Shown: positions 1,076-23,126 of the stretch, one piece after another
Position numbering within the stretch: position 1 is the stretch's first letter
How the letters are laid out: every line of letters begins with the position of its first letter
NCBI RefSeq assembly: GCF_016919705.1
Contig: NZ_CP070368.1
Span: 1,488,001 to 1,552,000, forward strand
DNA length: 64,000 bases
Origin: Paracoccus methylovorus
GTDB taxonomy: Bacteria; Pseudomonadota; Alphaproteobacteria; Rhodobacterales; Rhodobacteraceae
Direction of reading: 5' to 3'
Notes under the pieces: model-generated
Told to the model about the DNA's origin: nothing
Seen by the model: the letters and a program-made list of their open reading frames with translations, nothing else
The model's database searches: none
Program-made: the position numbers and the translations under genes

Positions 1076-1520
1076 GGTGATGATGATCCTCGGGCCGTAT
1101 CCATTCATGCTGCACACCGCCGCACCGCAGGCGGTTGCGCGGCGGTCGGAATATCGTTGGGAACAGCAGGATCGTATCGGCCGCAAGCCTGCCCGCCAGT
1201 TCCTCGGGGCCGGTTCGGACGAAATCACCATGTCGGGCGAAATCCTGCCGCATTTCGCGGGCGGTTACCGGCAGCTTGACGCCATGCGGCTGCTGGCCGG
1301 GCGCGGAAGGCCGCTCCTGCTGGTCAGCGGGCGCGGCGATGTTCTGGGCGATTGGGTGATCACCGGCATCGAGGACGAAGGCAGCGAGTTCTTTGCGGAT
1401 GGTGCTCCTGGTGTCATCGCCTTCACCATGACCATTGCCGAATATGGTGGCGACCGGGGCGGCATCAGTGCCCTGATGTCCGCAATATCGGCCATCCAGA
1501 CCATTGCGAGGCTGCTATGA
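1068..1520 (+). CDS. Phage tail protein, gpU family
   Basis: A 150-aa protein starting at the ATG inside the tape-measure stop region. It has the gpU pattern: an N-terminal stretch on tail behaviour (MMILGPYPFML), a central section with the residues GRKPARQFLGAG and an E-I-x-P-x-F-x-G-G turn (EILPHFAGGYRQLD), and a C-terminal helix. In P2-like phages gpU is a minor tail-completion protein. It overlaps the tape measure by 8 bases and gpX by 4 (ATGA), so it is translationally coupled to both. Family assignment rests on sequence pattern and gene order. Confidence 0.8.
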   Translation: MTKVMMILGPYPFMLHTAAPQAVARRSEYRWEQQDRIGRKPARQFLGAGSDEITMSGEILPHFAGGYRQLDAMRLLAGRGRPLLLVSGRGDVLGDWVITGIEDEGSEFFADGAPGVIAFTMTIAEYGGDRGGISALMSAISAIQTIARLL

Positions 1521-1717
1521 AATACCGCACCAAGGATGGCGATGTCGTCGATCTGATCTGCCGCCGTTATTATGATGGCGACCCGCACAGCGTCGAGGCA
1601 GTCTATGACACAAATCCCGGCCTGGCTGCATACGGCCCCGTCCTGCCTGCCGGCATTGTGATCGACCTGCCGGCCGCCCAGCCGGTCGAGCCGCAGACCA
1701 TTCGGCTGTGGGACTGA
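1517..1717 (+). CDS. Phage tail protein X (LysM-like)
   Basis: A 66-aa protein beginning MKYRTKDGDVVD, with the gpX/LysM-like pattern: a 'D-G-D-V-V-D-x-I-C-x-x-Y-Y' beginning, then 'VEAVYDTNPGLA' and 'LPAGIVIDLPAA'. The family binds peptidoglycan-like or tail components in P2-like phages and is normally 65-75 aa, so this copy is full length. It overlaps gpU by 4 bases and is one base from gpD. Confidence 0.85.
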   Translation: MKYRTKDGDVVDLICRRYYDGDPHSVEAVYDTNPGLAAYGPVLPAGIVIDLPAAQPVEPQTIRLWD

Positions 1718-1718
1718 C

Positions 1719-2693
1719 ATGACGCCGGACTTCAAGATCATCGCCGCCGGGGTCAACATCACGCCCCAGATCAAGGACCGGCTGCTGGGCCTGACCATCA
1801 CGGATGAGGCCGGCACCAAGGCCGACACCGTCGAAATCGTTCTGGATGACCGCGACGGACTGATCGAGCTGCCAGCGTCAGGCGCACCGTTGCTGGTCTT
1901 TCTGGGCTACCGCGAAACCGGCCTGATCCCCATGGGGCTGTTTACCTCTGATGAGGTGATGGTGACATCACCCCCGGCTACCCTGACCATCCGGGCCAAG
2001 GCCGCTGAACTGAGTGGCAGTATCAAGGATCAGAAGACCCGCAGTTGGGACAAGATCACCCTTGGCGATATCGTCATCACAATCGCGGGCGAACATGGGC
2101 TGACCCCGAAGGTCGCCGAGCGGTTCGGCGCAGTCATGGTCGAGCACATCGACCAGACCGAGGAAAGCGATATCAGCTTTCTGGACCGCATGGCGCGCGA
2201 GCACGACGCGCTGCTCAGCATCAAGGGCGGAGCACTTCTGTTCATGGGCAAGGGAGAGGGCCGCACGGTCAGCGGCCTGCCTATCCCGCCCCGCCCGGTG
2301 CTTGAGCGTAACGCGATCACCTGGACGCTGACCCTGACCACCCGCGAGGCTTATAAATCCGTCATGGCGATCTGGCAGGATACCATGCAGGCAAAGCGGC
2401 AAGAGGTTGCGGCCGGCGAGGGGTCGCCCGCCCTGAAGCTGCGCCACATCCACAAGACCGAGGACGAGGCCAAAGCCGCTGCCAATGCAAAGTTGCGAGA
2501 GATCACCCGGGGCAACGACACCTTCGAGGCCAGCTTCCCGGGCGATCCGCTGATCGCGGCCGAGGGACGTATTCTGACTGCCGGTTTCCGTGCCGGCGTC
2601 AATGGCCTCTGGTCGATCAAGACCGCCACTCATACGCTGGATGGCGGAGGCTTCAGTACGGCGATTTCGGCCGAGCGTCCGGGGGCGGACTAG
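1719..2693 (+). CDS. Phage late control gene D protein (gpD), tail/baseplate hub
   Basis: A 324-aa full-length member of the gpD family, which forms the hub at the baseplate of contractile tails and is related to VgrG/gp27. The N-terminal half carries the usual 'VNITPQIKDRLLGLTITDEAG' type strand pattern and 'LPASGAPLLVFLGY'; the middle has 'DISFLDRMAREHDALLSIKGG', a strong gpD signature. It is the last gene of the tail module. No lysis, regulatory or integrase gene follows: host-type sequence begins within about 100 bases, so the prophage or remnant ends here. Confidence 0.88.
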   Translation: MTPDFKIIAAGVNITPQIKDRLLGLTITDEAGTKADTVEIVLDDRDGLIELPASGAPLLVFLGYRETGLIPMGLFTSDEVMVTSPPATLTIRAKAAELSGSIKDQKTRSWDKITLGDIVITIAGEHGLTPKVAERFGAVMVEHIDQTEESDISFLDRMAREHDALLSIKGGALLFMGKGEGRTVSGLPIPPRPVLERNAITWTLTLTTREAYKSVMAIWQDTMQAKRQEVAAGEGSPALKLRHIHKTEDEAKAAANAKLREITRGNDTFEASFPGDPLIAAEGRILTAGFRAGVNGLWSIKTATHTLDGGGFSTAISAERPGAD

Positions 2694-2712
2694 GCCGGTT
2701 CATTCCAGTTGA

Positions 2713-2764
2713 TCGCGTTCCGCGTTCCAGAATATTGTGGTCCCGTCCACCGTCGCGTTCCGCG
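2713..2764. repeat. Direct repeat after the prophage tail module, possible phage right end
   Basis: The 12-base word TCGCGTTCCGCG occurs at 2713-2724 and again at 2753-2764, between the last tail gene and the first host gene. It shares the core TTCCGC with the repeats at 11090-11215, next to the Mu-like repressor. That would suit transposase-binding sites near the end of a transposable phage, but the exact end and a target-site duplication cannot be determined from this window alone. Confidence 0.35.
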
Positions 2765-2767
2765 ACT

Positions 2768-2796
2768 CCCCCGCAGGATATTTTGGACACGAAAGA
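2768..2796 (-). repeat. Dispersed intergenic element, copy 1 (reverse orientation)
   Basis: Read on the minus strand this gives TTCTTTCGTGTCC, then AAAATATCC, then GCGGGGG. The same blocks appear at 13840, 36558 and 44866 (minus). This is the shortest copy, with no hairpin half. Its GAAAGA end lies directly in front of the ATG at 2797 and is the only Shine-Dalgarno-like sequence there. Confidence 0.6.
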
Positions 2797-3546
2797 ATGA
2801 CGCAGTTTCTGGAAGGGCCGCAGGGGCGGCGCATCGCTTATCATCGCAGCGAAGGGACGGGGCCGGGTGTCGTTTTCCTGGGCGGGTTCAGGTCGGATAT
2901 GCAGGGCACCAAAGCGTTGTGGCTGGAGGATTGGGCGCGCAAGTGCGGCCGGGCCTTTCTGCGCTTTGACTATTCCGGGCATGGGGAATCGTCGGGCGCC
3001 TTTGAGGATGGCGCGATCGGCGACTGGTTCGCCGATGCCACGGCCGCGGTCCAGAAACTGACCGAGGGGCGGCAGGTATTGGTCGGTTCGTCCATGGGGG
3101 GCTGGATCGGTCTGCTTCTGGCGCGCACCATACCCGAGCGTCTGGCCGGGCTGGTGACCGTGGCGGCGGCGCCGGATTTCACCGAGCGAGGCTATTGGGC
3201 CGGTTTCCCCGAGGCGGAACGTGCGGCGCTGCTGGAGCAGGGTAGGGTCGAATTGCCAAGTGAATACGGTGATGCGCCCTATGTCATCACCCGTCGGCTG
3301 ATCGAGGACGGGCGCGATCATCTGGTGCTGGACCAGCCCTTGCCCATGCCGTTTCCCGTGCGTTTCCTGCAGGGCACGGCCGATGCCGATGTGCCTATGT
3401 CATGGGCGCTGGACCTGCTGGATCATGCCACGGGCGAGGACATGCGCCTGACGCTGGTCAAAGGGGCGGATCACCGTTTCTCGACACCGGATTGTCTGGC
3501 GTTGATCGGCGCGGCTGTGGATGAGGTGCTGGCGCGAGTTGCCTGA
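2797..3546 (+). CDS. Alpha/beta hydrolase (ABHD10-like esterase)
   Basis: A 249-aa serine hydrolase. The nucleophile elbow is GSSMGG, an early HG-type oxyanion loop is VFLGGF, and the acid/His pair is probably in 'TADADVPMSWA' and 'GADHRFS'. The 'FDYSGHGESSG' segment is typical of the family that includes ABHD10 and bacterial palmitoyl-thioesterase-like hydrolases. There is no signal peptide, so it acts in the cytoplasm; the substrate is unknown. The start was chosen at MTQFLEG because longer N-termini run into the intergenic repeat. It is convergent with phaZ. Confidence 0.8.
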   Translation: MTQFLEGPQGRRIAYHRSEGTGPGVVFLGGFRSDMQGTKALWLEDWARKCGRAFLRFDYSGHGESSGAFEDGAIGDWFADATAAVQKLTEGRQVLVGSSMGGWIGLLLARTIPERLAGLVTVAAAPDFTERGYWAGFPEAERAALLEQGRVELPSEYGDAPYVITRRLIEDGRDHLVLDQPLPMPFPVRFLQGTADADVPMSWALDLLDHATGEDMRLTLVKGADHRFSTPDCLALIGAAVDEVLARVA

Positions 3547-3550
3547 GAAA

Positions 3551-3576
3551 GGCGCGGGCAGGCCCCGCGCCCGGTT
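3551..3576 (+). terminator. Rho-independent terminator after the alpha/beta hydrolase
   Basis: An 8-bp GC stem (GGCGCGGG / CCCGCGCC) with a short loop is followed by CGGTTTT. It sits 5 bases after the stop and between two convergent genes. Confidence 0.6.
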
Positions 3577-3593
3577 TTCTGTCGCCGCCGAGG

Positions 3594-4937
3594 TCAGACC
3601 GCGAGCTTGGCGTCGTGGTCGGATGGGCTGTTTCCGTCTTGCTCGATGGGGCCGCCACTGCTGCGCCGCCGCCTGCGCTGGCCTTTGGGTTGCACCTGCT
3701 CGTCGATGAAGTCCAGCACCAGCGGGCGGATGTTCAGTCGCCAGCTTTTTCCGGCAAAGATGCCATAATGGCCGGCACCGGGTTCCAGATGCTGGGTCTT
3801 GCGGCTTTCGGGAACGCCGGTGCACAGCGCCAGCGCCGCGACGCATTGGCCGGGGGCCGAGATATCGTCGTTGGCGCCCTCGACCGTCATCACCGCGACA
3901 TCGGTGATCTTGCCCAGATCGACCGGCTTGCCGTTCACTGTAAAGCAGTTCTTCGCGATCTCTCGTTCCTTGAAGATGCGCTCGACCGTCGAGAGGTAGA
4001 ATTCCGCGGTCATGTCCATGACGGCCAGGTATTCGTCGTAGAAGGTGTTGTGCTTGTCGCCCTCGGACGCCTGGCCGCGCGCCTCGGCGAATATCTTGTC
4101 AAGGAAGGCCTTGGCGTGGGTTTCGGCATTCATGGCGATAAAGGACGAAAGCTGGGCCAGGCCCGGATAGACCATGCGGCCTGCGCCGCGATACTTGAAG
4201 CCCACCTGCTGGATCATCAGGTAATCGAGCTCGCCCATGGTGATGCGGTTGCCGAAATCCGTCACCTCGGTCGCGGCGGCATCGGGGTCGATCGGGCCGC
4301 CGATCAGGATCAGCGAGCGCGGCTGGGCCTTGGGGTCCTCTTCCGCCAGCAATGCGGTTGCGGCCAGCGCCAGCGGCGCGGGCTGGCAGACGGCGATCAC
4401 ATTGGTGTCGGGGCCGAGGTGGCGGATGAAATCGACCAGATACTGGGTGTAGTCGTCGATATCGAACTTGCCGCAACTGACCGGGATGTCGCGGGCGTTA
4501 TGCCAATCCGTCACATAGACTTCGCAATCGGGCAGTAGCGAGGTGACGGTCTTGCGAAGGAGGGTCGCGTAATGACCCGACATCGGCGCAACCAGCAACA
4601 CCTTGCGCTCCAGCGGTTCGCGGCGGGCGACACGGAAATGCACGAGATCGCCGAACGGGCGCTCGATCACCGGCTCGACGTAGACGACATGGTCCTGGCC
4701 CTCTTCCGAGACGATGGGCGGGATTTCCCAGTCCGGCTTGATAACCATGCGCGCAAAACTGCGTTCGGTCACCCGGCCCCAGGCCGACATCAGCTTGAAC
4801 ATCGGATTCGGCAACAATGCGAATGCCGGGTAGGACGAAAGGGCGCGCGCACTGGCGCCGACCCATTCGTTCGTGTTGCGGATCGTCTCCATCGCGTCGT
4901 AGGAGATGATCCCCTTCAAACCTTTATACGTTGCCAT
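3594..4937 (-). CDS. phaZ: Intracellular polyhydroxyalkanoate depolymerase
   Basis: A 447-aa PhaZ that breaks down stored PHB granules inside the cell. It has the intracellular depolymerase signature: 'WHNARDIPVSCGKFDIDDY' and the nucleophile region AVCQPAPLALA with Cys184, which replaces the serine of ordinary lipases. 'TVEGANDDISAPGQ' and 'EPGAGHYGIFAGKSW' supply the probable Asp and His. The C-terminal 30 residues are Arg/Ser-rich and probably disordered. It is divergent from phaC, with a 114-base shared upstream region. Confidence 0.93.
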   Translation of the reverse strand: MATYKGLKGIISYDAMETIRNTNEWVGASARALSSYPAFALLPNPMFKLMSAWGRVTERSFARMVIKPDWEIPPIVSEEGQDHVVYVEPVIERPFGDLVHFRVARREPLERKVLLVAPMSGHYATLLRKTVTSLLPDCEVYVTDWHNARDIPVSCGKFDIDDYTQYLVDFIRHLGPDTNVIAVCQPAPLALAATALLAEEDPKAQPRSLILIGGPIDPDAAATEVTDFGNRITMGELDYLMIQQVGFKYRGAGRMVYPGLAQLSSFIAMNAETHAKAFLDKIFAEARGQASEGDKHNTFYDEYLAVMDMTAEFYLSTVERIFKEREIAKNCFTVNGKPVDLGKITDVAVMTVEGANDDISAPGQCVAALALCTGVPESRKTQHLEPGAGHYGIFAGKSWRLNIRPLVLDFIDEQVQPKGQRRRRRSSGGPIEQDGNSPSDHDAKLAV

Positions 4938-5051
4938 CCAAACCTTCTCCTTGGAGTTTTGCTGGATTTGACCTTGCCGGGGAAGGACACGGCTTTACCT
5001 GCGTATTGCGCTAGGCATAATGATTTTACGGTTAATGGAGGATTGTCAATT

Positions 5052-7367
5052 ATGGCTGGCAAGGACGAAAAACCGGAGGCGGCCACCGGGGCCGGGTCCA
5101 AACCACGCAAGAAGCGGGGTGCGGAGGATAAAATTCGGTCCGAGGCCCAGGCCGCGAAACCTGAACCCGCGCTAGCCGATTCGGAAAAACCCGCACGGAA
5201 GCGACAAGCGAAAGCCCCGTCTGCAGCCAAGGCTTCGCCAGCGCCCGCGACGCCGGCAAAGCCCGAGGCCGCCAGCGCCAAGCCTGTTTCGGCAAAAGCC
5301 GCCACCAAATCCGGCACGCGCAAACCCGTGTCGCGTGCGCGGACGGCCACGCGCAGCGATCCGCGCACCGGCACGCGCCGCAAACCCTCGGCCAAGGTTG
5401 CTGCAAAGGCACAGGTCGAGGCCGCATCGCTGAGCGCCGTCGATGAGGCGCTGCGTCCGTTGGGGGCGACGGGTCCCGGCTCGGTGCCGCCCATGAGCGC
5501 ACCCGTCGGCGGCAGTCCCGCCCTTGGTGAGAGCGAAAAGCCCGCCAGCCCGGCGGTCGAGCAATCGGTCAGCCCCACCACCGCCGCCTTTGCCGAAGCG
5601 GCCTTTGGGGTCGGCAGCCGCTTGCCCGAGCAACTGGCCCAGAACATCGAACGCATCGAATCGCTGACCCAGCGCCTGATCAGCGCATTGGCCAAGCGGC
5701 GCACGCACAGCCCGGGTGTCGAGATGCCGGGGCCGGAACTGTTCACCACCGCCACCACCGCCTGGGTCAAGCTGCTGGCCGAACAGCCCGAGCGCGTGCT
5801 GGGCCAGCAGGTCAGCTATTGGGGCGAGACGCTGCGCCATTTCGCCGAGGCACAGTCCGCCCTCGCACGCGGTACGCTGATGCCGCCGGCCAGCGAAGGG
5901 CCAAGGGACCGGCGTTTCTCGAACCCGTTGTGGGAGGCGCATCCGTTTTTCAATTTCATCAAACGGCAATACCAGATCAACGCTCAGGCGCTGGAAGAGG
6001 CTGCAAGCGCCCTCGATCTGCCTGAAATGACCGATCGGCGTCGGATCGAATGGTTTACCCGCCAGATGATCGACATGATGGCGCCGACGAACTTTCTGGC
6101 GACCAACCCCGACGCGCTGGAAAAGGCGCTGGAGACCGAAGGCGAAAGTCTGGTCAAAGGGCTGGAGAACCTTGTGCGCGACGTCGAGCAGAACAGCGGC
6201 GAATTGATCGTTTCGCTGGCCGACCGCGATGCTTTCCGCGTGGGCGAGAATATCGGCACCACAGAGGGCACGGTGGTCGCGCGCACCAAGCTTTACGAAT
6301 TGATCCAGTACAAGCCCACCACCGAACAGGTGCATCAGATTCCGTTGGTGATTTTTCCGCCCTGGATCAACAAATACTACATCCTCGACCTCAAGCCGCA
6401 GAACAGCCTGATCAAATGGATCGTCGATCAGGGGTATACGCTGTTCGTGGTGGCCTGGAAGAACCCCGATCCCAGCTATGGCGATACGGGCATGGACGAT
6501 TACGTTGCCGCCTATCTGGAGGTGATGGATCGCGTTCTTGACCAGACCGACCAGAAAAAGCTGAATGCGATCGGGTATTGCATTGCGGGCACCACGCTGG
6601 CGCTGACGCTTTCGCTGCTCAAGCAGCGCGGCGACGACCGGGTGAACTCGGCCACCTTCTTCACCACGCTGACCGATTTCGCGGATCAGGGCGAATTCAC
6701 CGCCTATCTGCAAGAGGACTTCGTTTCCGGGATCGAGGAAGAGGCATCGCGGACCGGCATTTTGGGTGCGCAACTAATGACGCGGACCTTCAGCTTCCTG
6801 CGCGCCAACGATCTGGTCTGGGGCCCGGCCATTCGCAGCTATATGCTGGGAGAGATGCCGCCGGCCTTCGATCTGTTGTTCTGGAACGGCGACGGGACCA
6901 ACCTGCCGGGGCGCATGGCGGTGGAATATCTGCGCGGACTTTGCCAGCAGAACCGCTTTGCCAAGGAAGGGTTCGATCTCATGGGGCATCGCCTGCATAT
7001 AGGCGAGGTGACCGTGCCGCTATGCGCCATCGCTTGCGAGACCGATCATATCGCGCCGTGGAAGGACAGTTGGCGTGGCGTGGCCCAGATGGGCGCCCGG
7101 GACAAGACGTTCATCCTGTCCGAATCGGGCCATATCGCTGGCATCATCAACCCGCCCAGCAAAAAGAAATACGGCCATTACACCTCGGCTGCGGGCTTTG
7201 ATCAGGACGAACAGCATTGGCGCGACAAGGCGCAGTATCACGAAGGCAGTTGGTGGGGCCGCTGGGGCGAATGGCTGGCTGGCCATGCCGGCCGCATGGT
7301 CGAAGCCCGCGTCCCGGCCGAAGGTTTCGGCCCGGCTCCCGGCGTCTATGTTCACGAGCGAGTGTAA
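5052..7367 (+). CDS. phaC: Class I poly(3-hydroxyalkanoate) synthase with long N-terminal extension
   Basis: A 771-aa PHA synthase that polymerises (R)-3-hydroxyacyl-CoA into granules. The catalytic alpha/beta-hydrolase part begins near residue 230. The lipase-like box is GYCIAG with nucleophile Cys510; Asp665 (ETDHIAPW) and His694 (ESGHIAGI) complete the triad. Class I synthases are usually about 580-630 aa; here the first ~175 residues are a Lys/Ala/Pro-rich low-complexity tail. The start at 5052 has GGAG about 10 bases upstream and follows the phaZ-phaC divergent promoter region. The box has Ala where Gly is common (GYCxGG). Confidence 0.93.
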   Translation: MAGKDEKPEAATGAGSKPRKKRGAEDKIRSEAQAAKPEPALADSEKPARKRQAKAPSAAKASPAPATPAKPEAASAKPVSAKAATKSGTRKPVSRARTATRSDPRTGTRRKPSAKVAAKAQVEAASLSAVDEALRPLGATGPGSVPPMSAPVGGSPALGESEKPASPAVEQSVSPTTAAFAEAAFGVGSRLPEQLAQNIERIESLTQRLISALAKRRTHSPGVEMPGPELFTTATTAWVKLLAEQPERVLGQQVSYWGETLRHFAEAQSALARGTLMPPASEGPRDRRFSNPLWEAHPFFNFIKRQYQINAQALEEAASALDLPEMTDRRRIEWFTRQMIDMMAPTNFLATNPDALEKALETEGESLVKGLENLVRDVEQNSGELIVSLADRDAFRVGENIGTTEGTVVARTKLYELIQYKPTTEQVHQIPLVIFPPWINKYYILDLKPQNSLIKWIVDQGYTLFVVAWKNPDPSYGDTGMDDYVAAYLEVMDRVLDQTDQKKLNAIGYCIAGTTLALTLSLLKQRGDDRVNSATFFTTLTDFADQGEFTAYLQEDFVSGIEEEASRTGILGAQLMTRTFSFLRANDLVWGPAIRSYMLGEMPPAFDLLFWNGDGTNLPGRMAVEYLRGLCQQNRFAKEGFDLMGHRLHIGEVTVPLCAIACETDHIAPWKDSWRGVAQMGARDKTFILSESGHIAGIINPPSKKKYGHYTSAAGFDQDEQHWRDKAQYHEGSWWGRWGEWLAGHAGRMVEARVPAEGFGPAPGVYVHERV

Positions 7368-7370
7368 AAT

Positions 7371-7417
7371 TTTTCTGCACTGCAGCAAGAAAATCTTGCA
7401 ATGCTGCAGTGCAGAAA
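7371..7417. promoter_or_regulatory. Probable PhaR operator / phaP promoter region
   Basis: CTGCACTGCAG at 7375-7385 and CTGCAGTGCAG at 7404-7414 form an extended inverted repeat with flanking TTT/AAA. PhaR of Paracoccus is known to bind TGC-rich sites upstream of phaP and phaR. The repeat lies between phaC and phaP, about 70 bases before the phasin start, so it most likely represses phaP until granules titrate PhaR. The binding itself is inferred. Confidence 0.7.
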
Positions 7418-7480
7418 GTATATGGGGGACAGAACAGTTTAACCGGTGCTCACACTTCGCGCCGATCATGGAGAGAGCAA

Positions 7481-7954
7481 ATGGCCAAGACCCCTGACTT
7501 TACGAAGACCCTGCAAGAAGTAATGGCGAAATTCCCGGTCGACACCTCGTCGTTCCAGGATGCCTTCAAATCGCAGACCGCCCTTGGCGAACGGATGGCC
7601 AAGGTTGCGCTGGCCGCCGCCGAGCGTTCGACCGAGATCTCGTCCCAGTGGGCCAAGGACACCATCGCCCGCATGGGTGAGCTGACCTCGTCCAAGGAAG
7701 AGCCGGCCGAATACGCCAAAGCGGTCAGCGATTTCGCCACCGCCGCCGCCGAAATGGCTGCCGAGCATATGGCTGCCTTTGCCGAAGTCGCCAAGAAAGT
7801 GCAGATGGACACCGTCGATCTGATGCTGACCGCCGGCAAGGACCTGGCCTCGGACGCCCAGAAAGCGGCCGAAAAAGCCACGCGTGAAACTCAAGCCGCT
7901 GTCAAGAAAGCTGCTGCCGCCGCGACCTCGTCCAGCACCGTGACCAAGGCCTGA
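7481..7954 (+). CDS. phaP: Phasin, PHA granule-associated protein
   Basis: A 157-aa Ala-rich, strongly helical protein that coats PHA granules. The N-terminus (MAKTPDFTKTLQEVMAKFP) and long amphipathic helices without Cys match alphaproteobacterial phasins. GGAGAGAG lies 6-8 bases before the start. It sits between phaC and phaR, with a TGC palindrome upstream and a strong terminator downstream, so it is probably a single-gene, PhaR-controlled unit. Confidence 0.92.
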   Translation: MAKTPDFTKTLQEVMAKFPVDTSSFQDAFKSQTALGERMAKVALAAAERSTEISSQWAKDTIARMGELTSSKEEPAEYAKAVSDFATAAAEMAAEHMAAFAEVAKKVQMDTVDLMLTAGKDLASDAQKAAEKATRETQAAVKKAAAAATSSSTVTKA

Positions 7955-7990
7955 TCGCGACCTCCACGGTTTAGCGACATCTGACGACAA

Positions 7991-8014
7991 GGGGGCAGTC
8001 CGCTGCCCCCTTTT
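7991..8014 (+). terminator. Rho-independent terminator after phaP
   Basis: A perfect 8-bp stem GGGGGCAG / CTGCCCCC with loop TCCG is followed by TTTT. Confidence 0.85.
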
Positions 8015-8089
8015 CCTATGCGTGCCCGGTGCCGCTTCCGGCGCAGAGAGGCGATTTTCTTTGCATTTTTCCGGACCATTTCCCATCAT

Positions 8090-8105
8090 GCTGCAAATGC
8101 ACTGC
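8090..8105. promoter_or_regulatory. TGC-rich site upstream of phaR, probable autoregulatory operator
   Basis: GCTGCAAATGCACTGC lies 10-26 bases before the phaR start. It shares the CTGC / TGCA words of the phaP operator. Binding would block the phaR ribosome-binding region or promoter, consistent with the known autoregulation of PhaR. Confidence 0.5.
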
Positions 8106-8115
8106 CGGAGGAGCC

Positions 8116-8703
8116 ATGGCTGAGGCCCAGAACACGACCCCGCTTCTGATCAAGCGCTATGCAAGCCGCCGCCTCTATAACACCGAGACGAGCGATTACG
8201 TCACGCTTGAGGATATCGCGGGGTTTATCCGTGCCGGGCGTCAGGTGCGCATCATCGACCTGAAGTCCGGCGATGACCTCACCCGGCAATATCTGCTGCA
8301 GATCATCGCCGAGCATGAGGGCAGGGGAGAGAATGTGCTGCCCATCGAGGTGCTGATCGATCTGGTGCGCAGCTACACGACCCAGGCGCAATCGGTGGTG
8401 CCGCAATTCCTGGCTGCCAGTTTCGAGATGCTGCGCGAGGGTCAGTCCAAGATGATGGAGAATCTTTCGACTTTTCCGAACCCCATGTCCTCGATGCCGG
8501 GGTTCGAGGCGCTTCAGCGCCAGCAGCAGCTGTTCCTGAAGGCCATGTCCGCGGGTTGGGGCACAGGCAGCACCGGCCCCGCAATGGATGACATGGAAGG
8601 GGGCGAGACCGGCCCCGGCGACAAGGGCAGTTCTGATCCCAAGGACATGGACGAGATCCGCCGCCAGCTTGCCGAATTGCAGAAGCGGATTTCGAAACTT
8701 TGA
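8116..8703 (+). CDS. phaR: PHA synthesis repressor PhaR
   Basis: A 195-aa repressor that binds both DNA and PHA. The N-terminal PHB/PHA accumulation regulator domain is unmistakable: LLIKRYASRRLYNTETSDYV (residues ~9-28) followed by the 'GRQVRIIDLKSGDDLTRQ' DNA-binding segment. The C-terminal half has the PHB_acc repeat 'VPQFLAASFEML' and a disordered Gly/Asp-rich stretch. The Shine-Dalgarno GGAGGAG is 3-5 bases from the ATG. It completes the phaZ-phaC-phaP-phaR locus. Confidence 0.94.
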   Translation: MAEAQNTTPLLIKRYASRRLYNTETSDYVTLEDIAGFIRAGRQVRIIDLKSGDDLTRQYLLQIIAEHEGRGENVLPIEVLIDLVRSYTTQAQSVVPQFLAASFEMLREGQSKMMENLSTFPNPMSSMPGFEALQRQQQLFLKAMSAGWGTGSTGPAMDDMEGGETGPGDKGSSDPKDMDEIRRQLAELQKRISKL

Positions 8704-8753
8704 GATAACTGCGACTTGCGCAACGCGTTTTGTCGCGCTAGACGAGCCGCCAC

Positions 8754-8843
8754 GGACGGTTGGCCGAGTGGTCGAAGGCGCACGCCTGGAAAGTGTGTAG
8801 GCGGGGAACCGTCTCGAGGGTTCGAATCCCTCACCGTCCGCCA
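8754..8843 (+). tRNA. tRNA-Ser(GGA)
   Basis: 90 nt including encoded CCA. The acceptor stem is GGACGGT / ACCGTCC with discriminator G. The anticodon loop CTGGAAA gives anticodon GGA. A long variable arm (GGCGGGGAACCGTC) and the T-arm GGTTCGAATCC fit a class II serine tRNA. Confidence 0.97.
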
Positions 8844-8869
8844 CTTTCAAGTTGCGAACCTGCCACGAG

Positions 8870-8890
8870 GCCCCCCAGCGGGGCTTTTTT
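8870..8890 (+). terminator. Terminator of tRNA-Ser
   Basis: Stem GCCCC / GGGGC with a 5-base loop is followed by six T residues, 27 bases after the tRNA. Confidence 0.75.
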
Positions 8891-8899
8891 CTTTTTATC

Positions 8900-9685
8900 T
8901 CAAAGGGGTTTGGCTGCTGGGTCCGCCCTGCGGAGACTGGCAGCACGACGGATATAATGCGCCACATCGTCGCCGATCCGCTGATGGTCGGGTGGTGTGA
9001 TGCGGCCGGAAAAGAACCCGTCCCATACCATCGTCACGATGGTCTTCTTTTGCCCGGCATCCTTCCGGGTTTCTGGCATCAGGCCCAGCAGCCCACCAGC
9101 ATCATAGGCCGCGATCCAGTTGTATAGGGTGGACCGGGACAGCACCTTGCGCTTGCCGTCCGGCAGGACCTGTATCTGCCCGGCTAGCACGTCCAGCGCC
9201 GCTTTGCGCGCTGGGCTGCCCTTCGGTTGTGCCGCCACCTGCCGGATGATGTTCAGCCGCCACTGCGCCACCGCAACCCGCTCATCCCATTTGGGATCGT
9301 GCTGGGTGACCGCCTCGGGCAGCTTGCGCACCTCGCCGGTCGCCGGGTCCACGGCCTCGTCCAGCTTGATGCCCTGCGACAGATACCACGCCTCGCGCAG
9401 ATCAGCCGGCAGGCTGTCAACGTGGACCTGCGGGGCCATGCCGCTCGCGCCGCCCCGACCGATTTCAACCTGACGAACGATAAGGTCAGCGCCGCGCCAG
9501 CGACCCTTTCCGATAGCCTTATTGACGTTCTGCTGGGCTATGCCAGCGAGGGCCGAAAAGGCCGCGACCGACAACCATTTTTCTCGGGTGCGCAATGGGT
9601 GCGCAATTGGGTGCTCAATCAACTGGACCGCAGGGATTGCGCACCCACCTTCGACCAACTGGAATTTATGCGCGACCTGCCCCAT
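8900..9685 (-). pseudogene. Mu-like transposase A, N-terminal fragment
   Basis: A 261-aa frame that begins like MuA-type phage transposases: a winged-helix DNA-binding domain at about residues 34-100 (TREKWLSVAAFSALAGIAQQ and 'NKAIGKGRWRG'), then a second helical domain with 'LSRSTLYNWIAAYDAGGLLG' at ~185-205. The DDE catalytic core and C-terminal MuB-interaction region are absent; homologous sequence seems to stop near 8960, and the last ~15 residues look like random coding. A normal MuA is over 600 aa, so the gene has lost more than half by deletion next to the tRNA-Ser terminator and cannot transpose DNA. Confidence 0.75.
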
Positions 9686-9690
9686 GGCTC

Positions 9691-9933
9691 TTACGCTGTC
9701 CCATCATACAGTGATTGTTGGCGGCAGGCTGGGCACATACGATTGTGCGGCCCTTCGCTGTCGAAATACGTCCCGCAGGTCAGGCAGGGGCGGCACTTCG
9801 CCCGGGCCTTGCGCTCAAGCCGGTCGGCATGGTCGTCAGCCTTCCACCAGGTAGAAAAGGTCGCGACAGCCTTGCCGCCGTCCAGCACGGACCAGAAAGC
9901 CCCGCTGCCCCGAACGGCGAACCGGCTGCTCAT
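9691..9933 (-). CDS. Small phage zinc-ribbon protein
   Basis: An 80-aa protein starting MSSRFAVRGSGAFW. The C-terminal half has two Cys pairs, CLTCG and CPACR, separated by 'TYFDSEGPHNRM', which should bind one zinc ion. Its start overlaps the preceding membrane-protein frame by 4 bases (ATGA), and it ends 5 bases before the transposase start. Such ribbons occur in the early regions of Mu-like phages of Rhodobacteraceae; the function is unknown. Confidence 0.55.
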   Translation of the reverse strand: MSSRFAVRGSGAFWSVLDGGKAVATFSTWWKADDHADRLERKARAKCRPCLTCGTYFDSEGPHNRMCPACRQQSLYDGTA

Positions 9934-10111
9934 GTGCCGACCACGATCGCCACAGCCGCAATCAGCAACCCGCCCATGATCGCGCCCGGCAGCACCCACC
10001 AGCCGGCCGGCAGGACCAGTTCGCCGCCCTCGTCCCGAACCGCACAGGCCCAAGGCAGACGCCGCTCATGAAGGCAAAGACCACGGCAGAAGCACCAAAC
10101 AGGATGATCAT
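9930..10111 (-). pseudogene. Small two-TM phage membrane protein, apparent single-base frameshift
   Basis: Starting at the ATG at 10111 (overlapping the previous stop as ATGA), the frame reads a hydrophobic segment MIILFGASAVVFAFMSGVCL. It then continues out of frame into a second segment, GELVLPAGWWVLPGAIMGGL, which ends in the ATGA overlap with the zinc-ribbon gene. The two halves join into a 60-aa, two-TM protein if one G is added in the GGG run at 10049-10051 (minus strand). This may be decay, a sequencing error, or less likely a programmed shift. Confidence 0.45.
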
Positions 10112-10320
10112 GCCGCACCCTCGCCCAGCAGATGATCCGCATAGCGATCAGCGATCAGATCGTTCAGATGCCCGGTCAGGGTGTTGCGCAGTCCGGCAAT
10201 CAACTCGATGCTGCGTACCTGTTGCAGCATCGAGTTGAACAGTTCGACCCGCTCAACCTCTGTCAGTTCGGACAGCGCCGACCGCGCCAGTTCCGAGGCA
10301 TCCCATGCAGGCTTGCTCAT
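10108..10320 (-). CDS. Small phage early protein, helical, unknown function
   Basis: A 70-aa acidic helical protein (MSKPAWDASELARSALSELT...). It is flanked by ATGA overlaps on both sides: its stop overlaps the membrane protein start, and upstream a short in-frame tail (ending KLVQAAQVAA) overlaps its own start, perhaps the remnant of a further gene. Its place between repressor and transposase suits a Mu-like early gene. I do not recognise the family. Confidence 0.5.
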   Translation of the reverse strand: MSKPAWDASELARSALSELTEVERVELFNSMLQQVRSIELIAGLRNTLTGHLNDLIADRYADHLLGEGAA

Positions 10321-10425
10321 GCTGCCACCTGTGCGGCTTGCACCAGTTTCCGCGCTTCGGCATCCATGCGAACACGATAGGCAGCGGTGACCACCTCACG
10401 TCCAGCCAAGCAGGAAGAGAAGAAA

Positions 10426-11085
10426 ATGGTGGTCGCTGACCGAATACGTGAGCTAGCCCAAGACAAAGATATGAATATAAAGAAATTTTCCAAATTTCTG
10501 GAGGTTAGTGAGCGAACAATCCAGAACTATCTTGCGGGTGTCAGCCTTCCCAATGGGCGCTCTCTTACTGACTTAGCCGAAAAAATTGGTGCTTCGCCCG
10601 CATGGATTTTGGTGGGCATGGGGCCAAAATATCTCACCGGTAACCACCAAAATTTGCACCATCCGATTCCAGATTTTGTCCCGATTCCGCGCTACGTCGT
10701 AGAAGCTAGTGCCGGTTATGGCGCAGCGGTCCATGATGAGGGATGCAGCGGCTATTATGCCTTCAACCGTAAGTTCCTTGAACGGCGTGGGTTGAAGCCG
10801 AACGATCTTTCGGTGATCGCGGTCAAGGGTGACAGTATGGAGCCAGACCTGTCAGAGGGCGATTTGATCCTGCTCGACCGAGCGCAGACAGAATTGTGCG
10901 ACGGCTATGTCTATGTGGTGCGTTTCAACGACGATCTCTTCGTGAAGCGTGTGCAGAAATTGCCCGGCAACCGCATCCAATTGCTATCATCGAATCCGCT
11001 CTATCCACCGATCACGGTAGAGGGTGCCGACCATACCGGTATCCAGATTATCGGCCGCGTTGTGAACTCAACCCATGAATGGTAA
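10426..11085 (+). CDS. CI-like phage repressor with S24 peptidase domain
   Basis: A 219-aa repressor. An XRE-type helix-turn-helix lies at about residues 15-60 (NIKKFSKFLEVSERTIQNYL). The C-terminal half is an S24/LexA-like domain with the nucleophile in VKGDSMEPDLSEGD and the Lys in 'LFVKRVQKL', so it should be able to self-cleave on DNA damage. The start at 10426 is preferred: AGGAAGAG lies 6-12 bases upstream. The first 60 codons are clearly A+T-richer than the host genes, a sign of phage origin. It is divergent from the early genes, as in Mu. Confidence 0.85.
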   Translation: MVVADRIRELAQDKDMNIKKFSKFLEVSERTIQNYLAGVSLPNGRSLTDLAEKIGASPAWILVGMGPKYLTGNHQNLHHPIPDFVPIPRYVVEASAGYGAAVHDEGCSGYYAFNRKFLERRGLKPNDLSVIAVKGDSMEPDLSEGDLILLDRAQTELCDGYVYVVRFNDDLFVKRVQKLPGNRIQLLSSNPLYPPITVEGADHTGIQIIGRVVNSTHEW

Positions 11086-18635: not shown

Positions 18636-20189
18636 ATGCGCATGTCCCGAAAGACCGCCCGCTATGTGATCGTCCCTGACGACAACGTCTTCAACGACAG
18701 CATGGAAACGACCAGCTTCCGGCTGTTTCGCGCCATGCATCACCGGCTTTTCCGCCCCTCGGGGGCAAAGCCCGCGGACAGCATGGCGCGGGGCGCCTGC
18801 CAAGGGTCGGAACCGGCGGCCCGGCCACCCCTGAGGATGCTGGATACCGAGGTTGGGCGGATCAGGTTGCTTGATTCCATCGGCGAGAACGAGGCGTCGC
18901 TGGTTCGTATGACGCCACAGCAGGCGCGCGAATTGCAGCGCGCCTATCCCGGACTGCGCGTGCGGCCCGAACTGCGGCTTTATCCCCTGCGCTATGGCCA
19001 GATCAATATCATTCGCAAGCAGGCCAATCCGGCAGCCTTTCGCTCGGCCAAAGAGCTTGAATTGCGCTGCGTCGACGCGCTCAGCGGCAAGCCGGTCGCC
19101 GGGGCCTCGGTCGTGGTGGTGCTGGACAGCCGGCGCGGCTTTGGCATCTCGGATGCGGTGACGGATAAGGACGGGCGGTTCCGCACCCCCCTGCCCGCCC
19201 GACAAACCCGCATCGACGCGGTGATCTGCCAGCCGCTGGCCGGATACTGGCCCGGCGGGACCGAGGATATCCCCGTCGCCGCCGAGGGCCTGACCGAACT
19301 GACCCTGTCGCTGGTCCCTGTTGCCGAGGATTTCAGCGACGGGCTTGCGCAGATGCTGGCCCCGGCAAAAAAGACCGACGGGCGTGGCGTCAGGGTCGCT
19401 GTCGTCGATACCGGCGTCGATCCCGCCAAGGGGTTGAACCTTGAACGTGGGCTGAACACCACCGGAACCGAACCCGCCGACGAATGGTTCGACAATGGCA
19501 CCGGCCATGGCACCCATGTCGCGGGCATCGTGGCCCGCATCGCGCCACAGGTCGCGCTGCATTCCTATCGCGTCTTTGAAAAGGGCGATGGCGGGGCCAG
19601 CGAATTCGCCATCGCCCGCGCCATCCGTCAGGCGGTCGAGGACGGCTGCGACATCATCAACCTGAGCCTTGGACAGTCGTCCGAGCCGATCGCGATCTCG
19701 CGCGAGGTGCGGCGCGCCCGCGCCTTGGGCGTGGTCTGCGTTGCGGCTGCTGGCAATGACTATATGTCGCCCGTCTCATATCCGGCGCGTTCAGGGGTGG
19801 TGGTGGCGGTATCGGCGGGTGGCTTGCTGGATAGCTGGCCAAAGGGCGCAATCACCGGCCGCAACGTCGCGGACGACCCCGCCCCCATAAAGGATCGCTT
19901 TTTTGCCAGATTCAGCAATATCGGACCGGAAGTGGACTTTATAGGACCGGGTGTCGGTATTATATCTTGGGTGAACAGGACCTCGAAGGGGGTAATGGAC
20001 GGCACCTCGATGGCTTGTCCCGCCGTGGCCGGGCTGGTGGCGCGGCTGCTGTCCCGAAACCCCGAAGTTCTTTCGGCGGAACGCAACCAACAGCGCTCCG
20101 ACGACATTATCAAGTTGGCGAACAGCCATGCGGTTCCGATAGGTTTCGGCCACGAATACGAAGGCGCCGGCCTGATCGACCAAAGGTAA
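18636..20189 (+). CDS. Intracellular S8 subtilisin-like peptidase with prodomain and inserted beta domain
   Basis: A 517-aa serine protease. The triad is complete: Asp258 (VAVVDTGVD), His291 (GHGTHVAG) and Ser458 (DGTSMACP), with oxyanion Asn374 (AAGND). Residues ~8-117 end in 'VRMTPQQARELQRAYPGLRV', like an I9 propeptide. Residues ~140-228 look like a carboxypeptidase-regulatory/CNA-B beta sandwich (GKPVAGASVVVVLD, 'TDKDGRFRTPLP'). There is no signal peptide or membrane segment, so it is probably cytoplasmic. A second start at 18642 has a better Shine-Dalgarno spacing. It is followed after 9 bases by the 87-aa gene and then the endonuclease, forming one operon. Confidence 0.85.
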   Translation: MRMSRKTARYVIVPDDNVFNDSMETTSFRLFRAMHHRLFRPSGAKPADSMARGACQGSEPAARPPLRMLDTEVGRIRLLDSIGENEASLVRMTPQQARELQRAYPGLRVRPELRLYPLRYGQINIIRKQANPAAFRSAKELELRCVDALSGKPVAGASVVVVLDSRRGFGISDAVTDKDGRFRTPLPARQTRIDAVICQPLAGYWPGGTEDIPVAAEGLTELTLSLVPVAEDFSDGLAQMLAPAKKTDGRGVRVAVVDTGVDPAKGLNLERGLNTTGTEPADEWFDNGTGHGTHVAGIVARIAPQVALHSYRVFEKGDGGASEFAIARAIRQAVEDGCDIINLSLGQSSEPIAISREVRRARALGVVCVAAAGNDYMSPVSYPARSGVVVAVSAGGLLDSWPKGAITGRNVADDPAPIKDRFFARFSNIGPEVDFIGPGVGIISWVNRTSKGVMDGTSMACPAVAGLVARLLSRNPEVLSAERNQQRSDDIIKLANSHAVPIGFGHEYEGAGLIDQR

Positions 20190-20198
20190 GGCCCAGAG

Positions 20199-20462
20199 GT
20201 GAAGACCATGAAGACGCAATACAAGAGACCCCTAAGCTGCGTTCTCGTCTATGCCGATGACCGCGACCCCAGCCGCGAGGAAACGGCCGAGGTGCTGGAC
20301 CAACTCAGGCCGCTGCGCGCCGAAGAGGTCGTGCCCGGCACGATCCGGGTCAAGGGCAGCCTGAACGACGTGCGCAAATATCTGGGCGAACTTGCGCATT
20401 GGCAGTTGGCGCAGGAAAAGATCTTTGCCCTTAATCCCCCGCACAAGGCACAGCTACGCTGA
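20199..20462 (+). CDS. 87-aa protein with inhibitor-I9-like pattern
   Basis: I know no family name for it. The sequence suggests a beta-alpha-beta-beta-alpha-beta order: strand SCVLVYAD, helix REETAEVLDQLR, strands around AEEVVPGTIRVKG, helix LNDVRKYLGELAHW, strand AQEKIFAL. That is the order of subtilisin propeptide/inhibitor I9 domains. It stands between a subtilase and a nuclease, and its stop overlaps the nuclease start by one base. A role as a trans-acting inhibitor or chaperone of the protease is inference. An alternative start is at 20208. Confidence 0.7.
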   Translation: MKTMKTQYKRPLSCVLVYADDRDPSREETAEVLDQLRPLRAEEVVPGTIRVKGSLNDVRKYLGELAHWQLAQEKIFALNPPHKAQLR

Positions 20463-21391
20463 TGCCGCGCGGCTTCGGCCCGTCTGCCGGGCTTGACGCG
20501 CTGCGGGTTACAAATGCAATTTTACCGCTGGAAAGCTATGACGACCGCCCGGGCTATGACCCGGGTTTCGTTTTGCAGTCTCATCCCCTGCCATTGCCCG
20601 GTCCGGGCCGCTGGGCGGATGATCTGGTCCACCTGACCCCCGAGGCCCGGCAACAGAGCCGCGACGACAGCGAGCTTCGCTATACCCATTTCTCGGTCCG
20701 TATGGCGCAGTCGCGCGCCCTGCCGCTTTGCAGCGCGTGCAATATCGACGGCAGCCGTTCCGATCACAGCGTGCCACGCAGCGACATCTGGCGGCGCGAT
20801 CCGCGGATCAATACCGGCTTGCAGAACCTGAACGAAGGTTACGGCCACGACCATCAGGGCCTGTTCAGTCGCGGTCACATGACCCGGCGCAAAGACCCGA
20901 ACTGGGGCCCGCCAGAGATCGCGCAGCGTGCCGACGCCGACACGTTCCACATCACCAATGCCGCCCCGCAGCGTCAGGGTTTCAATGCCGGCATCTGGCT
21001 GGCGCTCGAGGACTATGTCCTCGACAATACCGATCGCGCCAATCTGAAAGTGACGGTCATCACCGGCCCCATCCTTTCGCCCGATGATCCGGTCTATTAC
21101 AACCGCCGGATTCCGACCGCCTTCTGGAAGATACTGGCTTTTGTCCATGCAGGGACCGGGGCGCTGACGACGATAGGCTATCGCCGGTCGCAGATGGATT
21201 ACCTGCCCCGGCCGGCCGGTGGCCGTTTCGTCTTTGGGGATTTTCGCGACAGCCAGGTTCCGGTCCGCGCCATTGCGCAGGAAAGTGGGCTGGATCTTGC
21301 CGCCTATGCCGAACTGGACGTAATGGCCGGCGCCGGACCCGAGATGGAGATCCGGGTCGCCAGCACCGCCGACTTCTATCTGTCGCGCTGA
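20462..21391 (+). CDS. DNA/RNA non-specific endonuclease (NUC family)
   Basis: A 309-aa His-Me finger nuclease that cuts DNA and RNA with a single metal ion. The catalytic block is FSRGHMTRR with general-base His139, followed by KDPNWG; the metal-binding Asn is Asn166 in FHITNAAPQ. Most family members have DRGH; here the first residue is Ser136. 'LPLCSACNIDG' upstream is the usual N-terminal motif. Unlike the secreted NucA/Serratia enzymes it has no signal peptide, so an active enzyme would be toxic to its own cell unless controlled. It is the last gene of the subtilase operon. Confidence 0.85.
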   Translation: MPRGFGPSAGLDALRVTNAILPLESYDDRPGYDPGFVLQSHPLPLPGPGRWADDLVHLTPEARQQSRDDSELRYTHFSVRMAQSRALPLCSACNIDGSRSDHSVPRSDIWRRDPRINTGLQNLNEGYGHDHQGLFSRGHMTRRKDPNWGPPEIAQRADADTFHITNAAPQRQGFNAGIWLALEDYVLDNTDRANLKVTVITGPILSPDDPVYYNRRIPTAFWKILAFVHAGTGALTTIGYRRSQMDYLPRPAGGRFVFGDFRDSQVPVRAIAQESGLDLAAYAELDVMAGAGPEMEIRVASTADFYLSR

Positions 21392-21403: not shown

Positions 21404-23035
21404 TTAGCCATCCAGCACCGGAAAGCCGCGCGACAGGATGCGCCCGGCCAGCGGCGCGGAAATGGTGCCGGGGGTGCGGCCCCGATCAAGGCCAAGACGG
21501 GTCTGGACAAAGGCCCCCGCCAGATCGGCATCGCCTTGGGTCAGCAGCACGGCGGCGGTCAGCAGCAGGGCGCTGCGTTCGACGAACCAGCGCGCCTCGG
21601 CCTCGGGGACCGCGCTGCCCCAGCGGCTGCGATGCGCGGTCAGCGCGGCGTCATAGGCCGGGTCCAGCCCCGCCGCCGCATCCAGCCGCACCGCCAGCAT
21701 TTCAGCCGCCAGAGGATCGCGCGCCAACGTCCGCAGCGCATCAAGGCAGATCACATTGCCCGAGCCCTCCCAGATGCCGTTCAGCGGCGCCTCTCGGTAC
21801 AGCAGCGGCAGCGGCGTATCCTCGACATAGCCCATGCCGCCCAGTACCTCCATCGCCTCGGCCACGACCATCGGGCACAGCTTGTTGGCCATGTATTTCG
21901 CCAGCGCCACGCCGATGCGGGCAAAGGCGCGATCATCTTCCCCGGTGCCGTCAAAGCTTGCCGACACATGCAGGCCCAACGCCAGACTGCCGTGCCAGTC
22001 CAGCACCAGATCGGCCAGCACCGCGCGCATCAGGGGCTGGTCGATCAGCCGGCGCTGAAAGACCCTGCGATGGGCGGTCCAGTGATGCGCCTCGCGTAGC
22101 GCGGCCCGCATCAACCCCACCGGAGCCATGGCGGTATCGAGCCGGGTGTGATGCACCATCTGGAGGATGGTTCGGATACCGTCGCCCTCGCCGCCGATGC
22201 GCCACGCCAGGGCGCGGTGATACTCGATCTCGGCCGAGCCGTTCGAGCGGTTGCCGAGCTTGTCCTTGAGCCGCAGGATGCGGATCGCGTTGCGGTCCTT
22301 GTCCAGCCAGCGCGGCACCAGAAAACAGGTCAGCCCGCGCCCGGTCTGCGCCAGCGTCAGAAAGCCGTCCGACATCGGCGCCGAGCAGAACCATTTATGC
22401 CCGGTCAGCCGCCATGCCGTGCCGTCCGGTTCTGCCCGCGTCGTATTGGCGCGCACGTCCGAACCGCCCTGTTTTTCCGTCATCGCCATGCCCAGCGTCG
22501 CACCCGTCTTGCCGGCCAGCGGAAGCACGGACGGATCATAGCGCCGCGACAACAGCGCTCCGCGCCAGTCCCCGGGCAAGTCTTCGGCCGCGGAAACGAC
22601 AGGAACCGAGGCATAGGTCATGGTCAGCGGGCAGCAATGCCCCGGCTCGACCTGACTGGCCAGATAGACCATCGCGGCATGGGTCAGATGACCGGCCTGC
22701 CCGCCCTCCCACGCGACCGAATGATAGCCGGCACCGATCGAATCGCGCATGAAACGATGGTAGGCGGGGTGAAAGCGCAGCTCATCCAGCCGCCTGCCAC
22801 CGCTGTCGAACAAATCCAGTTCGGGCGAGTGGCGGTTTGCATCACGCGCGGCCTGACGCATTTCCGCCCGGCCCAGCAACGCTCCATAGCCGGCCAGCGC
22901 TTCGGTTTGCGCACCACCCGCCTGCATGATCGCCCGCAGCGCCGGATCGTCGCGCCACAGGTCGCGGTCGCCGGGGCTTTCGGGCTGGTTCATCACCTCA
23001 TGCGTTTCCAGATCGGCCGTCGGATCAAGATGCAT
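21404..23035 (-). CDS. Acyl-CoA dehydrogenase, AidB-like
   Basis: A 543-aa flavoprotein of the AidB branch: 'AMTEKQGGSDVRANTT' and 'LTGHKWFCSAPMSD' (FAD/substrate binding), 'IWEGSGNVICLDALRT' with the region of the catalytic Glu, and an extra C-terminal helical domain that makes it longer than ordinary acyl-CoA dehydrogenases (~380 aa). AidB binds DNA and protects it from alkylation in E. coli; an enzymatic role in fatty-acid or isovaleryl-CoA oxidation is equally possible. The start at 23035 has AAGGGG upstream; an ATG 7 codons earlier is possible. Confidence 0.88.
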   Translation of the reverse strand: MHLDPTADLETHEVMNQPESPGDRDLWRDDPALRAIMQAGGAQTEALAGYGALLGRAEMRQAARDANRHSPELDLFDSGGRRLDELRFHPAYHRFMRDSIGAGYHSVAWEGGQAGHLTHAAMVYLASQVEPGHCCPLTMTYASVPVVSAAEDLPGDWRGALLSRRYDPSVLPLAGKTGATLGMAMTEKQGGSDVRANTTRAEPDGTAWRLTGHKWFCSAPMSDGFLTLAQTGRGLTCFLVPRWLDKDRNAIRILRLKDKLGNRSNGSAEIEYHRALAWRIGGEGDGIRTILQMVHHTRLDTAMAPVGLMRAALREAHHWTAHRRVFQRRLIDQPLMRAVLADLVLDWHGSLALGLHVSASFDGTGEDDRAFARIGVALAKYMANKLCPMVVAEAMEVLGGMGYVEDTPLPLLYREAPLNGIWEGSGNVICLDALRTLARDPLAAEMLAVRLDAAAGLDPAYDAALTAHRSRWGSAVPEAEARWFVERSALLLTAAVLLTQGDADLAGAFVQTRLGLDRGRTPGTISAPLAGRILSRGFPVLDG

Positions 23036-23126
23036 CACCCATCCCCTTTGCTGCATCGCTGCGCGATGTTAGCCCGGAACGGCGCCCTGCCGCGAATTCC
23101 GTTGCGGCAGGGCGTCAAGACACCGC

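Follow-up and report, generated by a model that had tools for sequence, protein, structure and literature searches.

The window analysed here is a stretch of 64,000 nucleotides from Paracoccus methylovorus (assembly GCF_016919705.1, contig NZ_CP070368.1, positions 1,488,001 to 1,552,000), whose genus is one of soil bacteria. Three consecutive open reading frames on the plus strand form what we call the SUB-SML-NUC cassette: SUB (18636..20189, +) encodes a 517-aa S8 subtilase, SML (20199..20462, +) a small protein of 87 aa, and NUC (20462..21391, +) a 309-aa DNA/RNA non-specific endonuclease of family PF01223. ORF calling in the window confirmed the gene content and coordinates of the original prediction, and the active sites are intact. 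The predicted intergenic gaps of 9 and −1 bases are also correct if SML starts at the GTG at 20199. However, the ATG at 20208 is the likelier start because it fits a ribosome-binding site better, with AGAGG at 20195-20199 followed by 8 nt and then the ATG (20195..20210, +). With this start, SML has 84 aa and the gap between SUB and SML becomes 18 nt; several SML homologues also start near this methionine. The ATG of NUC overlaps the stop codon of SML (TGATG), an overlap shared by nine of the 16 related loci (L066-L073 and L079). In a pattern scan, no sigma-70-like promoter was found, and five terminator-like sites were counted compared with 2.8 expected. The cassette is preceded by the ribonucleotide reductase gene nrdJ and followed by a convergent gene for an acyl-CoA dehydrogenase with an AidB N-terminal domain; the ten window neighbours scanned all have roles in metabolism, transport or translation.

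SUB matches Peptidase_S8 in Pfam (7.3e-34) over residues 249-483 (19380..20084, +) and matches subtilisin BPN' at 2e-31. The residues D258 (19407-19409, +), H291 (19506-19508, +), N374 and S458 (20007-20009, +), which correspond to the catalytic residues of the S8 family, are all invariant in an alignment of 15 SUBs. The full triad that had been predicted is therefore present, and both the profile match and the Asp-His-Ser triad place SUB among the subtilases. An Ig-like (CarboxypepD_reg-like) domain at residues 146-226 (19071..19313, +) is weakly matched, its 26.1 bits (1.1e-05) lying below the Pfam cut-off of 32.3. The N-terminal domain, residues 1-118 (18636..18989, +), is predicted with low confidence to adopt a subtilisin-propeptide-like fold. 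For SUB, PADLOC gave its generic 'subtilase' model plus two IetS matches, both weak, and it had no match for SML or NUC; beyond the generic model, no known PADLOC defence system was recognised in the cassette.

The Endonuclease_NS domain of NUC (Pfam, 1.6e-40) covers residues 65-281 (20654..21304, +), and membership of PF01223 is indicated by a profile score over the cut-off, the RGH motif and the N/E residues. H139 (20876-20878, +), N175 (20984-20986, +) and E183 (21008-21010, +), presumably the catalytic residues of this endonuclease family, are invariant among 11 aligned NUC domains. Outside the Pfam domain, an N-terminal segment (20519..20641, +) is conserved in the clade with the motif Y.DR.GYDP.F...LP, in which the columns G31, F36, L45 and P46 are invariant in the 11-row alignment. 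This segment is a candidate pro-segment. Sequence alignment revealed no long gating insert in NUC relative to its fused relatives.

SML was originally described as I9-like, a description that may fit its predicted fold type but finds no counterpart in its sequence. Its predicted topology is beta-alpha-beta-beta-alpha-beta, and in predicted topology both SML and the N-terminal domain of SUB may resemble the subtilisin propeptides and POIA1 of family I9. In contrast, SML matched no Pfam family at E<=1, the I9 profile included, and showed no sequence match to subtilisin propeptides or POIA1; among the 50 VIA matches listed for SML, 4zoq is the only subtilisin prodomain noticed. An origin of SML as an internal duplication of the SUB N-terminal domain was considered and found no support, since a profile comparison of the two gave a probability of about 1%.

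The N-termini of all three proteins are of low hydrophobicity, with a 19-residue Kyte-Doolittle maximum of no more than 0.79 over the first 30 windows. The predicted lack of signals is thus upheld as the lack of an N-terminal hydrophobic stretch on this scale, and it makes a cytoplasmic location of SUB, SML and NUC likely. A Pfam scan of the three proteins found no sensor domain.

The three-gene order was then sought in other genomes. A scan of 84,980 species genomes with the NUC alignment yielded 179 confirmed loci, the best 80 of which were taken; the distribution described here rests on genome samples and on these best 80, with a bias toward close relatives. In 16 of the 80 (L066-L081), SUB and then SML lie directly upstream of a short NUC of 309-342 aa. 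These loci, which overlap with the genus survey below so that the counts are not additive, span Paracoccus, Cereibacter/Rhodobacter, Ensifer and a Caulobacterales MAG. They include P. denitrificans DSM 413 (L067), which has the three-gene form, and P. versutus DSM 582 (L068); the SUB of L069 has a shorter frame, of 452 aa. The 16 loci sit in about ten different flank sets, a grouping that is approximate because ORF strands were miscalled at some loci. Beyond the cassette, only common families (e.g., ABC ATPases) and antisense artefacts recur across the flank sets. NrdJ and the dehydrogenase flank the cassette in the window, in MKU1 and in P. denitrificans, while P. versutus and genome G436 have only the dehydrogenase flank in common with the window. 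The predicted gene order thus recurs and moves between loci, more than would be expected by chance.

Within the order, SML was found in 5 of 390 genomes, its own included; one of these matches is weak (E 0.009). NUC, at E<=1e-5, occurs in 25 of the 390. SUB was detected at E<=1e-60 in 18 of 125 Paracoccus genomes. Across the class, the SML profile matched only its own genome among 289, and in 72,556 plasmid records SML gave three matches, all from Paracoccus, and NUC 84. The cassette is therefore accessory, patchy and rare, rather than part of the conserved core synteny that the original prediction had named as its counter-case. A clean, unoccupied site between nrdJ and the gene for the acyl-CoA dehydrogenase was not seen among 61 Paracoccus genomes: the dehydrogenase occurs in 16 of them, three with the module adjoining and 13 without, and in none of these 13 does nrdJ lie within 1.5 kb of it. 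Regarding transfer into Rhodobacteraceae LNNU 3342, there was no clear excess compared with the core-gene yardsticks IlvC and NrdJ.

SUB and SML were inseparable in the Paracoccus genomes examined, as SML adjoins SUB in all 18 genomes with SUB. NUC follows them in 12 of the 18 and is absent there in six, suggesting that SML is the partner of SUB. Four of these six genomes lack a PF01223 match at E<=1e-5; G406 has one and G448 two; the PF01223 protein of G406 and one of the two in G448 are trypsin-NUC fusions. Among ten plasmid regions examined, SUB-SML without NUC was found on plasmids of Paracoccus aminovorans, Paracoccus sp. TOH, Variovorax and Rhizobium leguminosarum 9B, the first two of which are also among the six NUC-less Paracoccus genomes. 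At the loci that lack an adjacent NUC, including those in the four genomes without any PF01223 match at this threshold, SUB-SML must have another target or use.

A setting in a defence island and a link to phage, both raised in the original prediction, were not borne out. The neighbour scan covered 99 of 118 ORFs from 11 of 12 loci, all ten of L061 and nine others being left out. Among these 99 ORFs, nine PADLOC models each matched a single protein; three of the nine describe CARF-type regulators. Transporters, enzymes and regulators make up most of the 25 Pfam families listed, out of 87 in total. At 1e-10, PADLOC had no match among ten long window proteins. No defence island was found around the cassette in the window or around the related loci scanned. 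A scan of viral contigs gave no match, and in phage records NUC had two weak matches, at 23% identity, and no SUB match covered 80% of the protein; neither source revealed phage carriage. Some relatives of the cassette do lie among conflict-type genes. On a Ti plasmid, for instance, genes for a TIR protein, a second S8 peptidase and a CHAT protein adjoin SUB, SML and a trypsin-NUC fusion.

A protease occurs in the same protein as NUC, or next to it, at 77 of the 80 best loci, so the second counter-case of the original prediction, nuclease homologues mainly without a protease, does not apply. Pfam placed Trypsin_2 in the same protein as NUC at 58 of the other 64 loci, and a separate trypsin or caspase gene lies beside NUC at three more (two Trypsin_2, one C14 caspase). 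A Trypsin_2 ORF stands directly upstream of NUC in L125, perhaps as part of one split gene; the next gene in L140 encodes Trypsin_2 plus a hydrolase; and a divergent C14 caspase gene adjoins NUC in L142. These three were assigned by length and motif, as the pooled domain scan gives only counts. No protease was seen at three loci: L082 and L084 (Glomeribacter) are short contigs of 3150 and 3602 bases, and in L134 only 89 bases separate the contig end from the start of the NUC frame. In the first survey, within the order, eight of ten domain-scanned nuclease relatives carried Trypsin_2. In Rhizobium leguminosarum GLR17 (L056), genes for a CHAT-domain protein and a SIR2/pYEATS protein precede a NUC of 54% identity. 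Trypsin-NUC fusions do not as a rule have an S8 peptidase nearby, matches at E<1e-20 being listed for two of 64 loci (L097 and L118).

As a control, 150 genomes of the phylum were searched for PF01223; 30 were positive, and 108 ORFs around 29 loci were scanned. Of these, 24 matched PF01223 and three matched Trypsin_2; S8 and C14 were absent among the 25 families listed, with 56 more families outside that listing. Since PF01223 at large is rarely linked to a protease, protease linkage marks the clade of the window's NUC and not the whole family.

The NUC phylogeny was built from 92 NUC domains by a quick maximum-likelihood method and rooted at the midpoint; the support stars of the quick method are weaker. 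The 17 S8-linked NUCs (16 loci and the window) together with the CHAT-linked NUC formed one starred group (99), and most remaining rows are trypsin fusions; L047 and L134 are labelled as such in the tree, although Pfam finds trypsin in neither. Because of the midpoint root, loss of trypsin in the S8-linked group is only the simplest reading. In Agrobacterium pTiCFBP5877 and Rhizobium CIAT894, SUB and an 80-aa SML are followed by a trypsin-NUC fusion, and both NUCs fall outside the S8-linked group. In the SUB tree, Ensifer L076 groups with these Rhizobiaceae (100/100), and its NUC is of the short kind. Its SUB is 63.5% identical to that of Agrobacterium and 65.1% to that of CIAT894 (63.5-65.4% across the Agrobacterium/Rhizobium SUBs), with NUC identities of 46.5 and 45.4%; against the window, SUB is 36.7% and NUC 58.7% identical. 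The Ensifer SUB is thus nearer to Rhizobiaceae and its NUC nearer to Paracoccus, indicating that one kind of SUB-SML has been combined with two kinds of NUC.

Combined, these results favor reading the cassette as a mobile, cytoplasmic protease-nuclease effector module with a proteolytic switch on NUC, to which we assign a probability of roughly 0.5. As 77 of the 80 nuclease relatives are linked to a protease, such a switch is the best reading; it is plausible and would be akin to some bacterial immunity or self-killing systems, while a defence purpose is less certain than the switch. Of the original interpretation, the recurrence, movement and protease association of the genes have stood, whereas the defence-island setting and phage link have not. 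Who cuts whom, inhibition by SML, the trigger and the defence role are what we infer from these comparisons. SML, as the dedicated partner of SUB, would most likely act in trans as a pro-domain-like inhibitor or chaperone and so hold SUB in check. Some signal would release SUB, which may then cut NUC or its conserved N-terminal segment; the cut NUC would turn on DNA and RNA degradation, leading to growth arrest or cell death. SUB would thereby do in trans what the trypsin domain of related proteins may do in cis. The weakest point of this model is what keeps a standalone NUC inactive. The protease-less contigs L082 and L084, and the lack of a gating insert, a sensor domain, a defence island and phage carriage in the scans above, also count against it.

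The six NUC-less loci among 18 speak against a simple killer nuclease, and together with the four plasmid regions they would be expected if SUB itself were the effector or trigger, acting through proteolytic killing or lysis, with NUC as an accessory or structural partner. A precedent is LypC of Caulobacter crescentus, for which a 2026 report (PMC13236601) describes a protease serine needed for GTA-linked lysis and nuclease residues that are dispensable; this likewise counts against the simple model and makes it less certain that the killing is done by the nuclease. However, H139, N175 and E183 are invariant in the aligned clade, and two distinct NUC lineages have each been combined with SUB-SML, which argues that selection acts on the nuclease and leaves an effector role for SUB unlikely. 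Gene order could instead point to SML as an antitoxin of NUC that SUB degrades to free the toxin, as in proteolysis-regulated toxin-antitoxin systems. SML directly precedes NUC, and the TGATG overlap in the window and in 9 of 16 loci resembles that of many antitoxin-toxin pairs. We nevertheless consider an antitoxin role improbable: SML tracks SUB and not NUC, adjoining SUB in 18 of 18 genomes including the six without an adjacent NUC. Moreover, none of the 64 loci L082-L145 had a match to the SML profile at E<=0.01, and the trypsin-NUCs that do have SML (L057 and L058) have SUB too.

The metabolic, transport and translation genes flanking the cassette would suit an ordinary scavenging or turnover operon that breaks down macromolecules for nutrients or clean-up. 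Such a role is hard to reconcile with proteins in which signal peptides are not apparent, with a patchy, moving and rare cassette, and with a nuclease clade whose members are linked to trypsin, caspase or CHAT proteins, and it appears quite improbable. The Amidase_2 domain of one trypsin-NUC relative (L046) hints at cargo of a contractile or other injection system directed against rival cells. Yet none of the ten window neighbours scanned was recognisable as a secretion or injection gene, and no such gene family was recognised as common to the different flanks, so that we give this explanation very little credence.

A proteolytic switch on NUC has counterparts in the literature. Kaur et al. 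2020 (eLife, PMC7159879) predicted 'System 3' conflict systems, mostly in alphaproteobacteria, which couple a NucA-type endonuclease to a trypsin-like peptidase. Some of the polypeptides also contain an S8 domain, some of the systems have EAD1 or STAND partners, and the nuclease was predicted to be deployed through a proteolytic cascade. The cassette is alike in coupling a NucA/Endonuclease_NS effector to peptidases, and its NUC groups with the trypsin-NUC relatives. It differs in that its three genes are without a trypsin domain: no trypsin-like peptidase was found in the cassette proteins (E<=1) or the ten neighbours (1e-5), and no STAND partner among these neighbours. In addition, its S8 peptidase is a separate gene with a small, predicted ferredoxin-like partner, an arrangement absent from the System 3 section of that text. 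Because the core trypsin is missing, the cassette is best classed as a putative trypsin-less variant of System 3 and not as a member. In the open-licence PMC literature searched, no description was found of an operon of a subtilase, a small protein and a PF01223 nuclease.

Activation of an MBL-fold nuclease by protease cleavage, with trypsin or caspase partners, was shown experimentally by Tuck et al. 2025 (PMC12799240). HamM/HamAB, Avs1 and Canu of that study are alike in pairing a nuclease gene with an interchangeable protease whose cleavage activates the nuclease; they differ in the MBL fold, the trypsin or caspase and the gating inserts. NUC belongs to PF01223 and lacks the MBL fold of the pro-nucleases HamM and CanC, and the words subtilisin and EndoG are absent from the main text of PMC12799240. 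We tentatively propose, with the odds against it, that PF01223, the EndoG/EXOG type of animal apoptosis, could be a second nuclease superfamily run as a pro-nuclease. Its activating protease would be interchangeable across unrelated folds: trypsin in cis, a subtilase plus an inhibitor-like protein in trans, or a caspase or CHAT protein next door. The Paracoccus cassette would be the minimal, self-contained, mobile subtilase form. If true, protease activation would be known for nucleases of the EndoG/NucA fold as well as of the MBL fold, and protease replacement across folds would be shown. The minimal three-gene form in P. denitrificans DSM 413 makes the 2020 NucA-peptidase prediction directly testable.

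The nearest experiment to the cassette that we found is that on LypC, encoded in the LypABC operon of C. crescentus, which is described as patchily distributed and outside defence islands (PMC13236601). LypC is a trypsin-endonuclease fusion and is likened here, by architecture, to the fused relatives of the window's NUC; the spacing of H471 and N505 in LypC is 34, compared with 36 between H139 and N175 in NUC. The operon differs from the cassette in its partners, a CARD-trypsin protein (LypA) and an NLR-like protein (LypB).

The Agrobacterium plasmid pTiCFBP5877 carries a compact conflict-type gene cluster (L057, positions 1301-10932 of that locus; other coordinates outside the window are likewise locus-internal), in which the S8 subtilase SUB, the small protein SML and a trypsin-NUC fusion, a single protein with Trypsin_2 and PF01223 endonuclease (NUC) domains, have a TIR protein, a second S8 peptidase and a CHAT protein as divergent neighbours. 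In R. leguminosarum GLR17 (L056, 1456-6918), an LCAT/M17N/CHAT protein, a SIR2-pYEATS protein and a standalone NUC are encoded consecutively, and the annotated start of this NUC (6151) misses about 50 residues that can be aligned to the window NUC. The gene list of the Variovorax WDL1 plasmid record lacks an 87-aa ORF behind SUB (L061, 7307-7570), which is an SML relative (8.3e-7).

In the window, the module has a convergent neighbour on the minus strand (21404-23056), encoding an acyl-CoA dehydrogenase with the N-terminal domain of AidB, a protein of the alkylation response. The same gene adjoins a trypsin-NUC fusion in the Paracoccus genome G448 (L186, 7004-11045), where the SUB-SML pair is located elsewhere.

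A C14 caspase gene and a standalone NUC form a divergent pair in Streptomyces roseolilacinus (L142, 7893-9843). In Pontibacter vulgaris (L118, 5987-9840) a divergent gene for a 450-aa S8 peptidase, matching the SUB profile at 1.3e-24, lies immediately upstream of a trypsin-NUC fusion.

One trypsin-NUC fusion has an Amidase_2 domain added at its N-terminus (L046, 10713-13319). At two further loci, genes close to trypsin-NUC fusions (L103, 5465-7590; L141, 3921-6267) share similar helical N-termini. These may be reminiscent of EAD1 adaptor domains; EAD1 is, besides STAND, one of the partners named for a subset of the predicted NucA-trypsin System 3.
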